Origin: a virus
Virus record (IMG/VR): IMGVR_UViG_3300048672_000527
Location: 1 to 64,000 of that record
Reading direction: 5' to 3' (one strand)
Length of the DNA: 64,000 nucleotides
The number at the start of each line of letters is the position of its first letter. Positions within the stretch are counted from its first letter, which is position 1. The translations under genes were made by a program, and so were the position numbers. Shown here one piece after another: positions 527 through 21,468 of this stretch. The notes under the pieces are model-generated. The model was not told the DNA's origin and ran no database searches. It was given only the letters and a program-made list of their open reading frames with translations.

Positions 527-1060
527 ATGAGTTTTAAACAATATATCAACGAATTTGTGCGCAAGGGTGTTTGGGAGCACCTGCTAACCAAAGATAAATC
601 AGAGTACAGTAAGGATTTGATTAATCTAGTAGATAACGCATATAAACACACAAGTCTTGGGTCGTTTGTTAAATCTGTAAACGACGTTAAGAACTCCGAG
701 TGGTTGGTACTTGACTATACGGATAATCCACACTTAGATATCGCTATTTTTTATCGAGGGCCGCGTGCTGATGAGCACTGGAAAGGTAAGAAAATCCAAG
801 GTGTCGGACACGATGGTACACCGGTCAGTAAAGTTAAGCTGATGGCCGAGTTAAATAAAGTTCTGCAACAAAAAGGTTTTTGGATTGAAGCATCCGAACG
901 TATGGAAGGCGCTCTGCGTAAAAGTGGTGCTCATGTTCAAAAAGATGGTCTCAATAAAATATTCTCTGGTATAATCAAAATAAACGATGATGGCAGTTAT
1001 GTTCGTGATATCAACGGTGAACATTCCAAAGAAACTATTTTCGGACACCCTATAGTATGA
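527..1060 (+). CDS. Putative internal head protein with capsid-targeting N-terminus
   Basis: The 177-residue product begins MSFKQYINE, which matches the pattern of the T4 capsid-targeting peptide (MKTYQEFIAE in internal proteins), including the I-x-E site cleaved by the gp21 prohead protease. The rest is a compact alpha/beta protein with a conserved-looking core containing YRGPRADEHW and KIQGVGHDG at about residues 75-100. I recognise no enzyme family with confidence. It overlaps the next gene by four bases (ATGA), and that gene starts with almost the same peptide. By inference the protein is packaged in the head and may be injected with the DNA. Confidence 0.7.
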   Translation: MSFKQYINEFVRKGVWEHLLTKDKSEYSKDLINLVDNAYKHTSLGSFVKSVNDVKNSEWLVLDYTDNPHLDIAIFYRGPRADEHWKGKKIQGVGHDGTPVSKVKLMAELNKVLQQKGFWIEASERMEGALRKSGAHVQKDGLNKIFSGIIKINDDGSYVRDINGEHSKETIFGHPIV

Positions 1061-2280
1061 GTTTTAAACAATATCTACAAGAAGCACAGGTTAATGCGCA
1101 CATGACGCACATTAGTGATCTGGTGTTCATTGCTGGTGTTGATGGCACACGAAAGGCTGTTAACTATTTGCGCGATTTGCGTAATATGTTCGGCCACACT
1201 CAGCGCAATGTTTACACCGTCAAGTTTGACGGAGCACCCGCCATCATCTGTGGTATTGATCCAACTGACGGGAAGTTCTTTGTCGCTAAGAAGGGTATAT
1301 TCAATAAAAATCCAAAGGTCTACAAGACACAAGCTGATATTGATGCAGATTTAAGTGGTGAGTTGGCAGAGAAATTCACTATACTTTTAAGAGAATTGCC
1401 TTCACTTGGAATCAAATCGGGAATTTATCAAGGCGATTTGATGTTTACACACGATGATCTGAAAACAGAAACGATTGATGGACAAGAAATGGTTGTGTTT
1501 CACCCAAATACAATAGCGTATGCTGTGCCAAAGGACAGTGAGCTTGGTGCTAAGATTATGCGCGCCAAAATAGGTATGGTGTTTCACACAACATACACGG
1601 GTAATAACTTTGCTAATCTAAAAGCGAACTTCGGAAAAGACATAGTTCATAAATTTGCCAAAACCGATAATGTCTGGGCTATTGATGCCACACTGAATAA
1701 TCAGACCGCAAATTTTACTTTATCAGCTGCCGATTATGCAATGACCGAATTCCTTTTGAAGGATATTGGTCTTCAGTTCCAAAAGATTCCAAGTGCATTG
1801 CTGAATCAGTTCTCTCGCAATGAAGAGATGCGCGATGTGGTTTTGATCTATATTAACTCACTAGTGCGTCAGAATATCAAGGATATTAATCCGGTTGATA
1901 TGTCTCGCGGATTTCATAAGTTCATTAATGATCGTTATGAAAAGGAAATCGCAAAGCGTAAGACTCATGCTGCACAAAGTGCGTTAAATGATAAGCGTCT
2001 TCAAGCATTAGGAATTCTGCACGTATTCTCGGATGAGCAATGGGCTTCTGTATTTGAATTGGCCAAGAGTATTGACCTGCTTAAGGATATTCTTTTAACT
2101 AAAATGCGTAAGGTCGGTGGACTAAGTCACTTTATCCGTACAAGTGACGGATTCAGAGTTACAAATCCAGAGGGGTTTGTGGCTATTAACACATCTGGTG
2201 AAGCTATTAAACTGGTAGATCGTTTTGAATTTTCTACAAGTAACTTCGATCCAAGAGTAATTAAAGGGTGGCAACGATGA
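1057..2280 (+). CDS. DUF6267-like protein with ligase-type nucleotidyltransferase motifs, capsid-targeted
   Basis: The 407-residue protein starts MSFKQYLQE, a capsid-targeting peptide with an L-x-E cleavage site. The body resembles a phage family annotated as DUF6267. I see motifs ordered like those of covalent nucleotidyltransferases (DNA/RNA ligases): K56-F-D-G-A-P as motif I, Q-G-D-L-M-F at about 125-130 resembling motif III, M-V-F-H near 175 resembling IIIa, E372-G-F-V resembling motif IV and K385-L-V resembling motif V. A helical insertion separates III from IV. Ligase activity is an inference from these motifs only. The stop overlaps the ATG of the nuclease-like gene, implying translational coupling. 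Confidence 0.75.
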   Translation: MSFKQYLQEAQVNAHMTHISDLVFIAGVDGTRKAVNYLRDLRNMFGHTQRNVYTVKFDGAPAIICGIDPTDGKFFVAKKGIFNKNPKVYKTQADIDADLSGELAEKFTILLRELPSLGIKSGIYQGDLMFTHDDLKTETIDGQEMVVFHPNTIAYAVPKDSELGAKIMRAKIGMVFHTTYTGNNFANLKANFGKDIVHKFAKTDNVWAIDATLNNQTANFTLSAADYAMTEFLLKDIGLQFQKIPSALLNQFSRNEEMRDVVLIYINSLVRQNIKDINPVDMSRGFHKFINDRYEKEIAKRKTHAAQSALNDKRLQALGILHVFSDEQWASVFELAKSIDLLKDILLTKMRKVGGLSHFIRTSDGFRVTNPEGFVAINTSGEAIKLVDRFEFSTSNFDPRVIKGWQR

Positions 2281-3188
2281 CTGCTAATACAGTATTATCA
2301 GACATCAATGAAATACAAACAGGCTACTTTGTAAATGGTGGCAAATGGTATTCATCTGATGCAAAACAAGCATTTGAGGCACGGGTTAAACAAGCAAAGC
2401 CAGAAGAAGTTGCCGATGCTATTGGTAAAGCACAGGTAATGGCAGAAGAGTTTATCATCTGGGCAAAGCGGAATGGATATTCTGGAACAGTTAAAGAAGT
2501 TTGGTGGACGGCGCGACCTGGCGAGTTGGCACGTGCTTCTAAATCAGATGCCGATTCTAGAAAGAACCCTACCGACATTCTTGTTCTGTTCACATCTGGA
2601 CCAGCTAATGGTTTTCTAGGATTATCAGCGAAAGCAACTAAAACCAATGGTGAAATTGGATTTAAAAACCCAGGGCTTGGTACTATTGACAAAGCACTGA
2701 ACATTGATATTCAACGAGAGTATAAGAATCAAGAAGCGCAGTTAATCAAAAAATACAAACTACCAGAATCATCACAAACTCGAAAAGAGCATATTCGTGC
2801 CAACTCGGGTATTAAAGTTCAAACAGAGGCTATAGGTGTACAAATTTTGGCGGCCATGCGTGATGTGTTGATGCACAAACTACTATCACTAAAGCAAGGT
2901 GAGTTGCTAAAACATCTATTAGAAAACTGGATGGATGCTGATTTACTTTATCCACCATATATTAAGGTCACTGGTCAAGGGAATAAAGCTCCATATAAGG
3001 CTGTGACCATGGACCCAACGAATAATCCAAAATTAGATGCACTACGTAAAGGCCCCATCAAACTTGAAAAGGTTGGTAATGAGTCTATTGGTGTATCAGC
3101 TGGCGGTAAGAAAATAATGAAAATGCGATTCAAATTTGAATCTGAAAAGATGGCATCCTCAGTTAAAATGTCGGGAGACCCGTGGTGA
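2277..3188 (+). CDS. Putative PD-(D/E)XK-like nuclease, phage conserved
   Basis: The ATG at 2277 overlaps the upstream TGA and has an AAAGGG ribosome site; it is preferred over a GTG nine bases earlier. The 303-residue product contains NPTDILVLF followed after a short loop by FLGLSAKATK. The D...S-x-K spacing resembles the metal-binding core of restriction-like nucleases, in which the second acidic residue is sometimes replaced. The C-terminus is basic and probably binds nucleic acid. It lies between a ligase-like and an adenylyltransferase gene with overlapping ends. It has no capsid-targeting peptide. The nuclease call is tentative. Confidence 0.6.
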   Translation: MTANTVLSDINEIQTGYFVNGGKWYSSDAKQAFEARVKQAKPEEVADAIGKAQVMAEEFIIWAKRNGYSGTVKEVWWTARPGELARASKSDADSRKNPTDILVLFTSGPANGFLGLSAKATKTNGEIGFKNPGLGTIDKALNIDIQREYKNQEAQLIKKYKLPESSQTRKEHIRANSGIKVQTEAIGVQILAAMRDVLMHKLLSLKQGELLKHLLENWMDADLLYPPYIKVTGQGNKAPYKAVTMDPTNNPKLDALRKGPIKLEKVGNESIGVSAGGKKIMKMRFKFESEKMASSVKMSGDPW

Positions 3189-3766
3189 GCCTAAAAGACT
3201 ATATCAAAGAATCAAAAAGCAACGGTATTGTTGCGGCATTTGGTCGTATGAATCCACCAACCAACGGCCACGGACTTTTAGTTCAGTCTGTTCTGCGTTA
3301 TGCCCGCCAGTATAAGTGCGATCACGTGATTTACTTGTCTCGCAGTCAAGATAAAAAGAAGAATCCACTATCTATTGTCAAGAAACTATTTTGGGTCAAG
3401 AAGATGTTTCCAGGTGTTAGATTTGTGGGAGCGGATGAACACACGCGGACATTCATCGAAATGGTGATTGAATTAAACCACACATATGACACTCTTTATC
3501 TTGTGGCAGGCTCCGACCGCATACCAGAATATAAAAAGTTACTTGATAAATATAACGGGAAAGATTTTAATTACAAGAAAATTGAAGTACTCTCGGCAGG
3601 TGAGCGCGATCCGGATTCAGATGATGCTTCCGGTATGAGTGCTACTAAAATGCGTGAATATGCCAAGAACAATGATATATCTAATTTTAGAAAAGGATTA
3701 CCCGAAACAGTGCAATCTCAAGCGGCGCATATTATCGCCGATGTTCGCTCTGGTATGGGATTATAA
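3185..3766 (+). CDS. HIGH-type nucleotidyltransferase (NMN adenylyltransferase-like), capsid-targeted
   Basis: The GTG at 3185 overlaps the upstream TGA, sits seven bases from a GGGAG site and gives MSLKDYIKE, a capsid-targeting-like peptide. The enzyme body starts GIVAAFGRMNPPTNGHGLL, the (T/H)xGH signature of nucleotidyltransferases, and ends with SATKMREYA, the matching ISxTxxR motif. Between them lies LVAGSDRIPEY, typical of NadM/NadD-like adenylyltransferases. The expected reaction transfers a nucleotide from a triphosphate to a phosphate acceptor such as NMN. At about 193 residues it has normal family length apart from the tag. Substrate is not determined by sequence alone. Confidence 0.85.
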   Translation: MSLKDYIKESKSNGIVAAFGRMNPPTNGHGLLVQSVLRYARQYKCDHVIYLSRSQDKKKNPLSIVKKLFWVKKMFPGVRFVGADEHTRTFIEMVIELNHTYDTLYLVAGSDRIPEYKKLLDKYNGKDFNYKKIEVLSAGERDPDSDDASGMSATKMREYAKNNDISNFRKGLPETVQSQAAHIIADVRSGMGL

Positions 3767-3768
3767 TT

Positions 3769-5478
3769 ATGCAGTTTAAAGAATTCATTAACCGCAACAA
3801 AAATGTAGCACAAGCATCCGTCGCCCGTCGTATTTCTTCTGCCATTCAGGTGACAGAAGAACGTAATGCATTCTATAACGGTGAATTGTTCAAAAAGTAT
3901 GATTTGGTAGAATCAGATGGTAAACAGTATCGAATTATTGAACAATGCAGTAATTACTACCAAGTCGTTAATGAATCAGGTGAAGTTAGTCGTAAGTTTG
4001 CCAAGCAGTTAAACAAACTACCGTTTACTGATATACAGATAGAAAATAATCAATTCCATGGTTACAAGATAGTAACCGAGGAAGCACAAAAGTATTTTGC
4101 TAAGACATTCTTTGTCGAAGCTATTGATAATGACGATGTTGGAATCCTTAAAACAATAAAAGAACTAGATGAATCTATGTCAAATCAATACCAAAACAAA
4201 GACAAACTAACAGTAGCTAAAATCATCGCGGATACACTTGGTGTAAAACACGATGCTATTTCAAGCCCGGATAATCTAGTTAATCAGGCAATTGCAAAGG
4301 CAAAGAAGGATTCCGTTCTGATGAAGAACAAAGAACTCATTGCCAATATGATTGAAATTGCACGTGAAGTTGGCATTAAAGTGTCGGATAAGACATTTAC
4401 CGTTACAGAGGAAACGAAGTTCAAGGCTGGCGATAAGATTAAATCAATTTACGGAACACATCACACAGTAGCGGTCCATGATCACACTGGTCAGGTTACA
4501 ATGACGGATGGTAAAGTATTTCACCCAACAAAGGTTAAGTTGGCTGAATCTCTGGACGAGGGTCTTGATAGTCAACAAATCGAGATTAAAGCAAAAGAAC
4601 TCGCCAAAGGTGGTCCAATTACACGTGGCCATCGCGCTGCTGCACGTCGACACTTACGTCATTTGGTTGGTGATCGTAATATTAAAGAATCTGAAGATTT
4701 AGATGAGTCGGATGTGGTCCGTCCTGGGCCAAATGGTAAGACAATGATCAGTGCCGAGAAACTATTATCCAAGGCTCGTGAATTTGCAATTGCAGATGGC
4801 GGGAAACAAAAGAATGGCAAGGTTCTAGTCACACCAGAGCACAAGGCCAAGGCACGAGCTCATATCCTGAGTCAGAATGAGTCAACTCATAACGAACACA
4901 CATCTAAACACAAGCCGCACAAATCCGTCGACTGTAGTGAAATCTTAAAGTATCTGACTTCTGCTTATCGTGAAATCACTCAGGATGTTGATAATGGTAT
5001 CTCTGCGGATGGTAAGCACACAATCCAGATGATGTATAATAGCTGGCGCTATGATCTAATGAATGATGATTTTGCAGAATTTGAGAAATCATATGACCGT
5101 TGGGCTGCTAAGCATGTTGATGCATTTGATTATTTTGTGGACATTGTATTTGAAAAGGCTAAACTAGGACACCATGGGACATACGAGCAATTCTTAAAGG
5201 TATGTGAATCCGTCGAAAATAATGCCGAACCTTTAGAAGAACTTTCTATCCCAACGCTGAAGACATACTCACAGTTGGCAAAGAAAGATGCTAGTAAACT
5301 AGTTGCTTCCGCCGGGAAGACAAAGAATATTGATAATGCGCACGCTAAACTGGATAAAGCCGGGAAGCGTCTTGACGGCGCCAAATTGGCAGATAAAAAG
5401 GCTTTCGCAAAAGACTGGAAGCACCGCACAGGGCAGAATGAGGATGTCTCGTTCTCGACATTCTTAAATGCTGAATAA
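3769..5478 (+). CDS. Multi-module internal-head-like polyprotein
   Basis: The 569-residue protein begins MQFKEFINR, a capsid-targeting-like start with Arg where the cleavage Glu would be. Residues about 145-212 form a helical domain shared with the protein encoded at 18608. Residues about 218-263 look like a small SH3/KOW-type beta domain (FKAGDKIKSIYGTHH onward). Acidic linkers with L-x-E or I-x-E sites occur near 133, 258-265, 305-314 and 489, resembling prohead protease sites. Lys/Ala/His-rich helices follow, and the C-terminus ends SFSTFLNAE. I infer a polyprotein processed in the prohead. No catalytic motif is seen. It overlaps the next gene by 11 bases. Confidence 0.65.
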   Translation: MQFKEFINRNKNVAQASVARRISSAIQVTEERNAFYNGELFKKYDLVESDGKQYRIIEQCSNYYQVVNESGEVSRKFAKQLNKLPFTDIQIENNQFHGYKIVTEEAQKYFAKTFFVEAIDNDDVGILKTIKELDESMSNQYQNKDKLTVAKIIADTLGVKHDAISSPDNLVNQAIAKAKKDSVLMKNKELIANMIEIAREVGIKVSDKTFTVTEETKFKAGDKIKSIYGTHHTVAVHDHTGQVTMTDGKVFHPTKVKLAESLDEGLDSQQIEIKAKELAKGGPITRGHRAAARRHLRHLVGDRNIKESEDLDESDVVRPGPNGKTMISAEKLLSKAREFAIADGGKQKNGKVLVTPEHKAKARAHILSQNESTHNEHTSKHKPHKSVDCSEILKYLTSAYREITQDVDNGISADGKHTIQMMYNSWRYDLMNDDFAEFEKSYDRWAAKHVDAFDYFVDIVFEKAKLGHHGTYEQFLKVCESVENNAEPLEELSIPTLKTYSQLAKKDASKLVASAGKTKNIDNAHAKLDKAGKRLDGAKLADKKAFAKDWKHRTGQNEDVSFSTFLNAE

Positions 5479-18607: not shown

Positions 18608-19609
18608 ATGTCAGTTGCAAAAATTAAATTAGATGAAAAGACAACGCTGGAATTCGGTGTTTCTATTACTGGTGCAGACGGAAAGCCAGAAGCTCGCTTT
18701 GTTATTGACGGAAACGACTTCTCTGTTAGTTTTCCTTGCAAGCCAACAAATGAGGGTGTTGAAGTAGAAATCCAAGGATTAAAGGATATTTTCAAGGCGG
18801 GTCAATATGATGCACGTCTCGAGATTGTTTTGGAAAACAAAATCTATACTCCACTGATCGACAAGATTGAGTTTGAGCCTACTATCGAAATTCAAACTCA
18901 GACTAAACCAGTTGTTCCTGTAAAGGAGTCCATTAAAGTAGCGAAGATAACGGTTAAAAAACCCGAACTCAATGAAAATGAGTTGCGTAAAACGCAAGCA
19001 GCTACAATTATTGCTAATGCTTTAAACTATAAGCCAGCGCTGGCGGAAACCCCAACAGAAACTATTAATAGAGCATTACAACGAAGCGGCCCAATGACAA
19101 GTGAGCAAGCCGATACTATCGGTGAAATGCTTAAGTTGGCCGAGGAAGTTGGTATTGTTTACAGTAAAGATATTAATCTTGTTATCATTTCAGAAGAAGT
19201 TGAAGAACCAGTCGTAACTATTGATGATGATGGTTATTCTGATGAGCAGTTGGATGAAATCGTTGAAAGTTATAATAGTTTTGTTGATCTATCCCCGGCT
19301 TATGAACCACATGAGTTTGGACTAACACTTCAGGAATCTGAGCTATCATATGCTGATCAATTAACAATGCATTTGATTAACGGTGGTAAATTGTTAGAAT
19401 CTTCCAGTAAAGCCAAACTAAATGCACGAGCACATGCTCTGGCAACACGTGAAATTAAACGTGATATTGCAAAGAAACCATTAAACACACTATCTACTGC
19501 AGAACGCAAGCATTTGGATGATATTATGTCTCGTAAAGGGAATGTTGTGAATAGATTAGCCATGAAAATGGTGGGACATATTAAGCAAATCGAAAAGGCA
19601 AGTAAATGA
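18608..19609 (+). CDS. Head-core-like modular protein
   Basis: I chose the ATG giving MSVAKIKLDEKTTLEFGV; a TTG 12 bases earlier is possible. Of 333 residues, the first 100 form an Ig-like beta domain. Residues about 126-195 are a helical domain (ATIIANAL...LAEEVGIVYSKD) clearly similar to a domain in the protein encoded at 3769. An acidic linker follows, then a Lys/Arg/Ala-rich helical tail like that of scaffold or core proteins. It overlaps the next gene by four bases. I infer a head-core or internal-head role; no enzymatic function is visible. Confidence 0.6.
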   Translation: MSVAKIKLDEKTTLEFGVSITGADGKPEARFVIDGNDFSVSFPCKPTNEGVEVEIQGLKDIFKAGQYDARLEIVLENKIYTPLIDKIEFEPTIEIQTQTKPVVPVKESIKVAKITVKKPELNENELRKTQAATIIANALNYKPALAETPTETINRALQRSGPMTSEQADTIGEMLKLAEEVGIVYSKDINLVIISEEVEEPVVTIDDDGYSDEQLDEIVESYNSFVDLSPAYEPHEFGLTLQESELSYADQLTMHLINGGKLLESSSKAKLNARAHALATREIKRDIAKKPLNTLSTAERKHLDDIMSRKGNVVNRLAMKMVGHIKQIEKASK

Positions 19610-21468
19610 TTAAATTCTCAGAACTGACAAATGTAAAGCCAACTAGCATCTCTCTAGATGAAAGTAAGCGTGTAGAGATTGATAAAAAAGAATACGACAC
19701 TATTCACGCACAACACCACTCGGCCAAAGCTAATAATCGTACTGGTAAGTATGCCGCAGCTAATTATGTTTATACCGATAAAGAACACGGTAGAACAGGT
19801 AGTGAAGATCGCGGTGGTGTTGTAAGTCAGACATATTCACATGATGTCCATAAACTACCTACAATAGAAAAGGCGGGTGCTAAACATTACAAATATGTTA
19901 ATGAAGCATTTTATGTTGATGGCGATGAGAATGAAACCACAAAAGACCAACGTAAGGTATACGACACACAAACCAAGGCATTCAAAAAAGATGCCAAAGA
20001 GAATGCAGCACAGAAGGCCGTGAGTGAAGCAACTAAACCAATGTCAGATGAAGAAAAGAAGAAACCCTTTAACTATGCAGAGTGGAAAGCAAGCTCCGTT
20101 AAGCCTCGTGCTCTTCCTGGTTGGGGTAAGAAAGGCCCTATCACTAAAATGGTAGCATCAATGAAAAATGTAAAAGAATCTGAAGAACTCGATGAAGGAA
20201 AAGATGTGCAATTAAATCATAAAGTTGGTGATACTGTTTGGGCAAAGACCCAACATGCTTGGTCCACTAAGACTGGTAAAGTGACTAAGATTGGTCGTAC
20301 ACACACAACGATTACCCACAAGGATGGATCATCGGGAACATATCCACACAAGGATGTTTCATTGGATTACCCACATAAAAATCCGTATCACGAAAGCGAA
20401 GAAATGACAAAAGTATCATTCAAAGAATTCATCAATGAAGGTTTGGCATCTAAAATTGCTAACAAAATTATGGGAGTAGCTCCGACTAAACCAAAATATA
20501 AAGTTGGACAGAAGGTTTCCTACGAGATGCATCCACCACAAGAAGGTGGTAGTGGAACCGGTCATATCGAATCTTACAAAAATGGTCATTATCTAGTTAA
20601 TGGAAAACCAATAAATCACCACGAAATAAAAAAGGTTCATGAATCAGAAGATCTAGGTGAATCTGCTCGTATGGCACCAGGCAAAAAAGTTTGGACTTCA
20701 CACACAGATAGTCCAAAACAAGGTAGTATTGTTGGTAAAGATACAGACAATAAAAATCACTATATAGTGAAACATAGTGATGGTGAACACTCAGTACATC
20801 AAGATCACATTCATTTCTCTAAGGAACATGCAGGTTATATGTATGAATCTGAAGTAAATGAAGCTATTAAAATGTCTGATTATCACGCACACTCCGAGAA
20901 ATCACAATTCAAAAACGGTCACCGCCCACATATTACATATAAGTCTGATCCAAAGCGTACTATGTATCTTGGTCAAGACGTATACAAAACTAAAGAACAC
21001 GCCAAGGGTCATGCTGAAGCGTATCTGAAGGGTTATGCCGATATAGGCCCAAATCATGCCGATCGTATGGCTTCAGCTTATCGTAAGGAACACGCACAAC
21101 ATATTGTAGAGGGAACAGAAATGCAAGAATCATCTCCATTTGACTGGAAGGGTAAAGCATCCATCTTCACTAAGAAGGATGATACAGTATCAACAGAAAC
21201 AGGTACTAAACACAAAGGAACATATGGTTCTGATGACCATAAGGTCAAAGGTGATGGCTCGGCGCCGGTGAAACGTGGCCGTGGTCGTCCAGCTGGTTCT
21301 TATAATGGTGAGTATAAGAAGCGTGATCCAGCAGGAAAAGCTGCTTCGGCTGCTAAGGCGATGGCATCTAAGGCAGAGGGTCTGAAAATTCGTGGTGAGT
21401 ATAAGCAAGCAATGAATGATGCAATCAAAAAGCGCCAGGCAGAGCTGCACGCAAAAACCGCTAAATAA
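19606..21468 (+). CDS. Internal-head-like polyprotein with SH3/KOW modules and AT-hook
   Basis: The 620-residue basic, His-rich protein shows three small SH3/KOW-like beta modules near residues 206-255, 298-343 and 357-405. They are separated by acidic linkers with repeated ESEELDE-type motifs near 190, 262, 345, 413 and 505. At residue 267 an internal Met begins MTKVSFKEFINEG, a copy of the capsid-targeting peptide, so the chain may be two fused packaged proteins or may have an internal start. Residues 556-565 (KRGRGRPAGS) are a canonical AT-hook for minor-groove DNA binding. Together these features suggest a protein packaged with and bound to phage DNA, processed at the linkers. Confidence 0.7.
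   Translation: MIKFSELTNVKPTSISLDESKRVEIDKKEYDTIHAQHHSAKANNRTGKYAAANYVYTDKEHGRTGSEDRGGVVSQTYSHDVHKLPTIEKAGAKHYKYVNEAFYVDGDENETTKDQRKVYDTQTKAFKKDAKENAAQKAVSEATKPMSDEEKKKPFNYAEWKASSVKPRALPGWGKKGPITKMVASMKNVKESEELDEGKDVQLNHKVGDTVWAKTQHAWSTKTGKVTKIGRTHTTITHKDGSSGTYPHKDVSLDYPHKNPYHESEEMTKVSFKEFINEGLASKIANKIMGVAPTKPKYKVGQKVSYEMHPPQEGGSGTGHIESYKNGHYLVNGKPINHHEIKKVHESEDLGESARMAPGKKVWTSHTDSPKQGSIVGKDTDNKNHYIVKHSDGEHSVHQDHIHFSKEHAGYMYESEVNEAIKMSDYHAHSEKSQFKNGHRPHITYKSDPKRTMYLGQDVYKTKEHAKGHAEAYLKGYADIGPNHADRMASAYRKEHAQHIVEGTEMQESSPFDWKGKASIFTKKDDTVSTETGTKHKGTYGSDDHKVKGDGSAPVKRGRGRPAGSYNGEYKKRDPAGKAASAAKAMASKAEGLKIRGEYKQAMNDAIKKRQAELHAKTAK

Follow-up and report, generated by a model that had tools for sequence, protein, structure and literature searches.

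The stretch of viral DNA analyzed here, called the window, comprises bases 1-64000 of a 164,769-base IMG/VR phage record (IMGVR_UViG_3300048672_000527); coordinates on the whole record carry the prefix G000. Near its start lie five plus-strand open reading frames (ORFs), several of which begin with a short peptide tag resembling the bacteriophage T4 capsid-targeting sequence (CTS). The first, at 527-1060, starts with ATG, encodes a 177-aa protein of unknown function and carries the tag MSFKQYINE (527-553). Its end is overlapped by the start of ORF 1057-2280, also an ATG, which encodes a DUF6267, ATP-dependent ligase-like protein tagged MSFKQYLQE (1057-1083). An untagged 306-aa protein follows at 2268-3188, and then a predicted cytidylyltransferase/NMNAT-like nucleotidyltransferase at 3182-3766, which opens with GTG GTG and is tagged MSLKDYIKE (3185-3211) from a GTG start. 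The fifth ORF (3769-5478, ATG, 569 aa) begins with the tag-like peptide MQFKEFINR (3769-3795). The first 12 kb of the window had no nucleotide match to phage records. A first-pass annotation, made from the sequence alone, had described near-identical N-terminal peptides on three neighboring genes; all three are present, but the genes are not strictly consecutive, because the untagged ORF 2268-3188 intervenes. Its placement of the tag at the very N-terminus holds for ORFs 527 and 1057, where the tag lies at the earliest start that the frame allows. The fourth gene that it included, ORF 3769, keeps the aromatic residues but has Arg where the cleavage Glu is expected.

The first ten residues of T4 IPIII suffice for packaging, and mutagenesis of the T4 CTS assigned residues 4 and 7 mainly to targeting and residues 8 and 10 to processing (PMC9026906, available in part). 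Two aromatic residues in the T4 4/7 spacing are found in ORFs 527 and 1057 and in a further tagged protein at G000:93670, described below; ORF 3185 has Leu for the first aromatic. Ile or Leu and Glu in the T4 8/10 spacing are found in ORFs 527, 1057, 3185, and G000:93670, and not in ORF 3769. The Glu of ORF 527, E9, is invariant in all five aligned sequences, one of which is 99% identical. The window genome also encodes portal, gp21, gp22, and gp23, with the gp21-type protease and the gp22 scaffold at G000:87932-88618 and 89214-90251. The likeness to the CTS of T4 IPI, IPII, and IPIII extends to an N-terminal position, a length of about 10 residues, aromatics at 4 and 7, Ile/Leu at 8, Glu at 10, unrelated carriers, and the company of gp21 and gp22. 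The first-pass reading of the peptide as a T4-type CTS is supported by a match at the four positions relevant in mutagenesis, by the presence of gp21, gp22, and gp23, and by tagged nucleotidyltransferase homologs in virions.

A strict motif, R1, was defined as [FYW]xx[FYW][ILVM]xE starting at residues 2-9, and the gene caller was blind to it. A blind R1 scan of T4 returned 3 of 270 genes: IPII and IPIII, which both begin MKTYQEFIAE in the T4 record, and gp61.1. R1 occurred in 0/48 genes of T7 and 0/77 of lambda. T4 gp61.1 (NC_000866 18966-19130, locus L099; 54 aa) begins MKTFKEFIKED and is a candidate further internal protein. T4 gp23 has the motif FGSFLTE at 59-65, presumably the site at which it is cut by gp21.

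With internal methionines as background, R1 was found at 3/268 called ORFs of the window genome alone against 1/786 internal methionines (p = 0.053), numbers too small to decide. The motif search over the whole genome did find further tags, one inside ORF 19606-21468 and MKTFKDYLIE at G000:93670-94200, but fell short of clear enrichment for this genome by itself. When the relative C48C1 is added, R1 is found at 9/478 ORFs against 1/1,610 internal methionines (p = 1.3e-5); one of the nine matches, C48C1 108128 MFKMPETIWRAYMVE, is probably due to chance. A wider sample consisted of the best 80 of at least 598 confirmed IMG/VR contigs with a DUF6267 gene, and the remaining counts in this and the following paragraph refer to it. 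R1 starts 132/999 ORFs against 6/4,448 internal methionines; 83 of these tags have their first aromatic at residue 4, and the consensus of the tags is M-K-S-F-K-Q/E-Y/F-L/I-T-E. Under strict clustering a tagged member is present in 30 of 472 clusters, singletons included, where 1.34 would be expected. Some of the 30 are related by their N-termini (several nucleotidyltransferase, two DUF6267, and two DUF6321-like clusters), and for this reason a lenient recount was made, with the first 14 residues removed and related clusters then merged. This left 14/371 clusters tagged against 1.29 expected (p = 1.2e-10); the largest lenient cluster comprises 264 ORFs and holds 100 of the 132 tagged ORFs. The proposal that the tags sit on otherwise unrelated proteins is supported in these related contigs by either count.

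The tagged fraction differs by family: 35/40 in the main nucleotidyltransferase cluster (strictly tagged), 41/79 in DUF6267, 4/8 in a HAD-like phosphatase, and 4/4 in a 267-aa family. Many of the "untagged" DUF6267 proteins have near variants of the motif, such as MKTLKNYIVEQKN. The first-pass annotation had noted that the same peptide on clearly non-packaged proteins would speak against a packaging signal; the replication proteins that we inspected were untagged (gp41-like helicase 0/34, UvsX-like 0/23). Pfam searches with 20 representatives of the 30 tagged clusters gave only DUF5824, DUF6321, and DUF2608 above cut-off, the DUF2608 match being on a HAD-like phosphatase.

A family-blind census was made with a DNA pattern for the tag, which matched at least 120 stretches; 80 loci were analyzed among the matches listed, to which the following numbers apply. 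An ORF of at least 60 aa is opened by 74/81 matches, against 515/1,858 for random ATGAAR. After removal of the first 14 residues, the 74 proteins fall into 34 clusters. At E 0.001, Pfam identified DUF6267 (three proteins), S-adenosylmethionine (SAM) lyase (two), HD_4 (two), and single DnaJ, DPBB, and cytidylyltransferase-like proteins, together with a methyltransferase below its cut-off; 14 of the 74 matched a PHROG named "virion structural protein". A match in L147, the frame of which runs 120 codons upstream, was set aside as probably a chance internal match. The tagged HD_4 hydrolases, at L159:279-842 and L199:1226-1783, are in our estimation similar to (p)ppGpp hydrolases. An unnamed family forming a census cluster of 18 (L131, L132, L153, L161, and others), mostly of about 170-210 aa, is very often tagged and has the pattern KTYxFxVKIAGELPE...TPIQ..PLDFP. 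In the stretches of named phages that were read, strict tags were found in 1/64 ORFs of DLP_6 (DUF6267), 1/35 of P-TIM40 (nucleotidyltransferase), and 2/34 of Melnitz (DUF6267 and its upstream neighbor).

ORF 1057 matches Pfam DUF6267 (PF19782) at 3.2e-96, with 323 bits against a cut-off of 27. The window protein was aligned with 53 others, drawn from 68 full-length ATG-start proteins. In these 54 sequences the tag Glu, E9, is at least 90% conserved; K56, D58, and G59 (KxDG), E372, G373, and K385 are invariant, and V375 is at least 90% conserved. With KxDG, EGxV, and Lys taken by us to be the ligase motifs, and with our assignment of them to these residues, the conserved positions follow the ligase motif order as judged from the alignment. 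An AlphaFold model (pLDDT 85, with residues 1-11 below 50) gave ligases or ligation complexes in 44 of 50 VIA-align rows, which is not decisive alone; the best row, 5cou, has Z 7.8 where the tool's note asks for 8 (rmsd 3.8, 184 aligned residues). Foldseek returned no match at E 0.001 or better, and a DUF6267 sequence profile against PDB sequences found nothing relevant and no ligase. ORF 3182 matches PHROG 3041 at 6.1e-63 and Pfam PF01467 with 17.4 bits, below the cut-off of 21, and is probably an NMNAT/cytidylyltransferase-like enzyme. The 60 rows from a phmmer search of the nucleotidyltransferase against PDB, all at E 0.19 or above and nearly all Hsp70-type, were taken as chance.

Residues 26-239 of ORF 3769 align with residues 205-521, in the C-terminal part, of longer nucleotidyltransferases in L015, L016, L020, L021, and L080 (E 3e-8 to 8e-4). 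The nucleotidyltransferase gene appears to be split in the window into ORFs 3182 and 3769, with tag-like N-termini on both parts, the second lacking the Glu. The untagged ORF 2268 has a homolog in L049 that is tagged MQSFKRFITE; the two are 47% identical over 307 alignment columns, and the alignment begins at residue 4 of ORF 2268 and residue 11 of the L049 protein. By this comparison the L049 tag consists of extra N-terminal residues relative to ORF 2268. For ORF 527, neither Pfam nor PHROG gave a match below 0.01, and the AlphaFold model was discarded (mean pLDDT 54). Homologs of ORF 527 in two uncultured phages of 735 kb and 635 kb (L011 and L012) have N-termini that resemble looser tags (MKHLKAFEEYE; YISSYKIFEADEF).

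Published virion proteomes of three cyanophages, S-CREM2 (PMC10665884), S-SZBM1 (PMC9146016, Table 1), and S-SCSM1 (PMC9602691 and record notes), were compared with R1; the papers were available in part, and the virion results given here and below are limited to those parts. For S-CREM2, 52 proteins are listed in particles. Among 219 coding sequences, R1 marks the SAM hydrolase gp6, the kinase gp14, and the cytidylyltransferase gp154, and all three are in the virion list, against 49 of the 216 others (p = 0.013). Looser tags are found on two further virion proteins, gp13 (MKDLHSFLTE) and the Cas9-like nuclease gp12 (FASFMAE from residue 19), whereas the looser matches gp37 and gp175 are absent from the list. 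Allowing L/I/M gives 4/6 detected (p = 0.029), allowing the tag to start up to residue 25 gives 4/5 (p = 0.012), and both widenings together give 6/13 (p = 0.059). The untagged NrdA (gp163), primase (gp162), and DNA ligase (gp190) are not listed. The annotated start of gp12 (OR473000 7704-10313) may be too early. The S-SZBM1 virion list includes the tagged nucleotidyltransferase gp140 but not the tagged gp191 and gp192 (105 and 165 aa), a tagged 43-aa ORF, or the untagged DUF6267 protein. In S-SCSM1 the tagged NMNAT gp91 is listed and the tagged gp30 (106 aa) is not. Pooled, 5/9 tagged and 125/710 untagged proteins were detected (p = 0.012, stratified 0.011); this uses our own count of 48 S-SCSM1 proteins flagged in the record, and the 45 of the paper give p = 0.011. 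The four tagged proteins that were missed measure 43-165 aa; the five above 200 aa were all detected. Homologs of the window nucleotidyltransferase, tagged as it is, are thus found in the particles of all three phages by mass spectrometry. No targeting signal is named in the available parts of the three papers.

Outside the window, the protein at G000:93670-94200 (L003:10670-11197), tagged MKTFKDYLIE, matches Acb1 (PF23474) with 48.3 bits against a cut-off of 27. Its HCT at 48-50 and HVT at 133-135 align with H44/T46 and H113/T115 of T4 Acb1 (PMC9117128, available in part), and it is predicted from family match and active-site residues to be an Acb1 anti-CBASS nuclease. T4 Acb1 (gp57B) shares the family and the HxT/HxT residues; it begins MMEFKDFSTG, in which the aromatics at 4 and 7 fit the CTS register and, unlike in G000:93670, I/L-x-E is absent. 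The T4 gene (L097:3953-4411) adjoins ipI. The word "virion" is absent from the available text of the T4 Acb1 paper. The tagged Acb1 gene is found some 2 kb downstream of gp23, which encodes the major capsid protein. Relatives in L101, L102, and L103 (98, 63, and 51% identical) keep FK[DQ][YW]LIE and likewise follow gp21, gp22, and gp23, the latter recognized by their N-termini; the called start of the L102 protein is 12 residues upstream of the tag. The octamer [CTA]ATAAATA, which we take to represent the T4 late-promoter consensus, is found at 33 places in 165 kb and, for 16/200 ORFs of at least 80 aa, no more than 80 nt upstream. It precedes the gp22 gene, ORF 527 (as AATAAATA at 489-496 on the plus strand, 38 nt before the ORF), and the tagged Acb1 gene. 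These octamers are candidate late promoters, and the evidence for them is suggestive only. A late-expressed anti-CBASS enzyme would make little sense unless it were packed for the next infection, and this would point to packing of Acb1.

We consider the shared N-terminal peptide to be a T4-type CTS that is carried by diverse enzymes and removed by gp21, with the cargo being injected, at a probability of roughly 0.8. Capsid targeting by the tag is well supported, and packaging of homologs is supported in part by the published mass spectrometry of other phages; cleavage, injection, scaffold binding, and the roles and early function of the tagged proteins we infer. Late in infection, the two aromatic residues would attach tagged proteins to the gp22 scaffold core, and the proteins would become enclosed in the prohead. 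The gp21 protease would then cut after the tag Glu and free the mature enzymes inside the head, from which they would pass, together with the DNA, into the next host cell. The tag would be used regardless of family, on the ligase-like protein, the nucleotidyltransferase, the protein of unknown function, and Acb1. Most likely, the cargo would be active during the first minutes of an infection and would target nucleic acids, NAD, or host defences.

Several observations weigh against this reading. The first aromatic is missing in two of four ORF 527 homologs (L108 and L109), and ORF 3769 lacks the cleavage Glu. No strict tag occurs in the 77 ORFs of the HTVC008M stretch read, and the DUF6267 proteins of P-TIM40, HTVC008M, and S-SZBM1 have none, the P-TIM40 protein starting directly at the enzyme domain. 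R1 misses the packaged T4 proteins IPI, which has a longer propeptide, and Alt. The octamer of the Acb1 gene lies just 12 nt upstream of the ATG; the near-identical L101 retains it, and neither L102 nor L103 does. The virion detections all come from three relatives. Taken singly, S-SZBM1 (1/4 tagged against 29/214 others) is not significant and S-SCSM1 (1/2 against 47/280) gives p = 0.31. Since four of the nine strictly tagged cyanophage proteins went undetected in virions, packaging is predicted only imperfectly by the tag. The S-CREM2 and S-SCSM1 authors allow that virion lists may include contaminants, and propose that such enzymes either ride in the particle or are residual contaminants.

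The undetected proteins and possible contaminants would also suit a peptide that resembles the T4 CTS and docks proteins to another complex, for example a replisome or a membrane site, with abundant contaminants accounting for the virion detections. In relatives, the genes for gp41-like helicase and UvsX-like proteins do have tagged genes close by. Neither of these replication proteins carries the tag itself, however, and the motif fits the four CTS positions tested in T4 (PMC9026906). The blind T4 scan recovered known internal proteins, and in S-CREM2 the three tagged enzymes are on the virion list while untagged NrdA, primase, and DNA ligase are off it. We consider such docking improbable, and contamination as the sole cause of the virion detections was rejected. 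Even less probable is a shared N-terminus that came about by common descent, through gene duplication or fusion of a small domain, and has no targeting function. Such descent is suggested by the close likeness of tags within one genome (MSFKQYINE and MSFKQYLQE), by the occurrence of fused and separate gene forms, and by the fact that the lenient cluster with 100 of the 132 tagged ORFs is held together by fusions. It is opposed by the diversity of the tagged bodies, which make up 14 clusters in the lenient count and 34 in the family-blind census, by families that occur both tagged and untagged, and by the conservation of the DUF6267 tag Glu, which calls for selection; a tag spread by recombination would be compatible with a CTS. 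Chance similarity of short N-termini, for which the count in the window genome alone would leave room, is contradicted by the enrichment in related contigs and by the family-blind scan, and can be given almost no weight.

A T4-type CTS on this cargo differs from the T4 internal proteins in that the carriers are predicted enzymes (ligase-like, nucleotidyltransferase, and Acb1), and in relatives SAM lyase, HD hydrolase, DnaJ, and others; T4 Alt also has propeptides. Among the T4 internal proteins, IPI acts as an inhibitor of the GmrSD restriction system, and IPIII, which is required on Escherichia coli ECOR17, is regarded as anti-defence (PMC9391042, available in part); a counter-defence role for some of the cargo is therefore plausible. 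The Dar proteins of phage P1 (DarB) similarly have an N-terminal packaging signal and are counter-restriction cargo delivered from the head; unlike the tag described here, their N-termini gave the authors no BLAST consensus, and there is no separate scaffold (PMC9024508, in the parts available). Literature under "capsid targeting sequence" consists mostly of titles on T4, SPN3US, P1, and P22. Searches with the T4 peptide letters and DUF6267 found no papers, and those combining "capsid targeting" with cyanophage or internal head protein found no title on the subject, in a coverage that leaves out most subscription papers and preprints.

By a narrow margin, we favor the broader view that a large, mostly unrecognized set of T4-like phages shares a single interchangeable tag for head loading, by which enzymes directed against first-line immunity are packed in advance, and that the head of this phage carries pre-made Acb1. 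If so, head-carried Acb1 could destroy the immune signal before any phage gene is expressed, and the injected effectors of T4-like phages could be read from genomes by the tag alone. The tag would offer a simple sequence rule to predict the proteins that T4-like phages carry into the cell, and a possible mechanism for the repeated, unexplained presence of NMNAT-like enzymes in cyanophage particles. Counter-defence enzymes packed in the head would be expected from it, namely anti-CBASS Acb1, SAM lyase, and HD hydrolase.

Two further observations concern processing. A tagged 118-aa protein at L127:3268-3621 has ETPTNSVG right after the tag Glu, a segment that matches the major-head-protein profile (1.6e-5) and resembles AAPTNSAG of the window phage's gp23 just past the presumed gp21 cut; this would agree with cleavage behind the tag Glu. 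In the window, the 620-aa ORF 19606-21468, on the plus strand, has the N-terminus MIKFSELTNVKPTSISLDE, which by eye resembles the longer IPI-type propeptide (T4 IPI begins MKTFKEFTSTTTPVSTITE), and a second in-frame tag, MTKVSFKEFINE, at 20404-20439. Position 20404 may be a start or an internal cleavage site, and the ORF may be a polyprotein or two genes.

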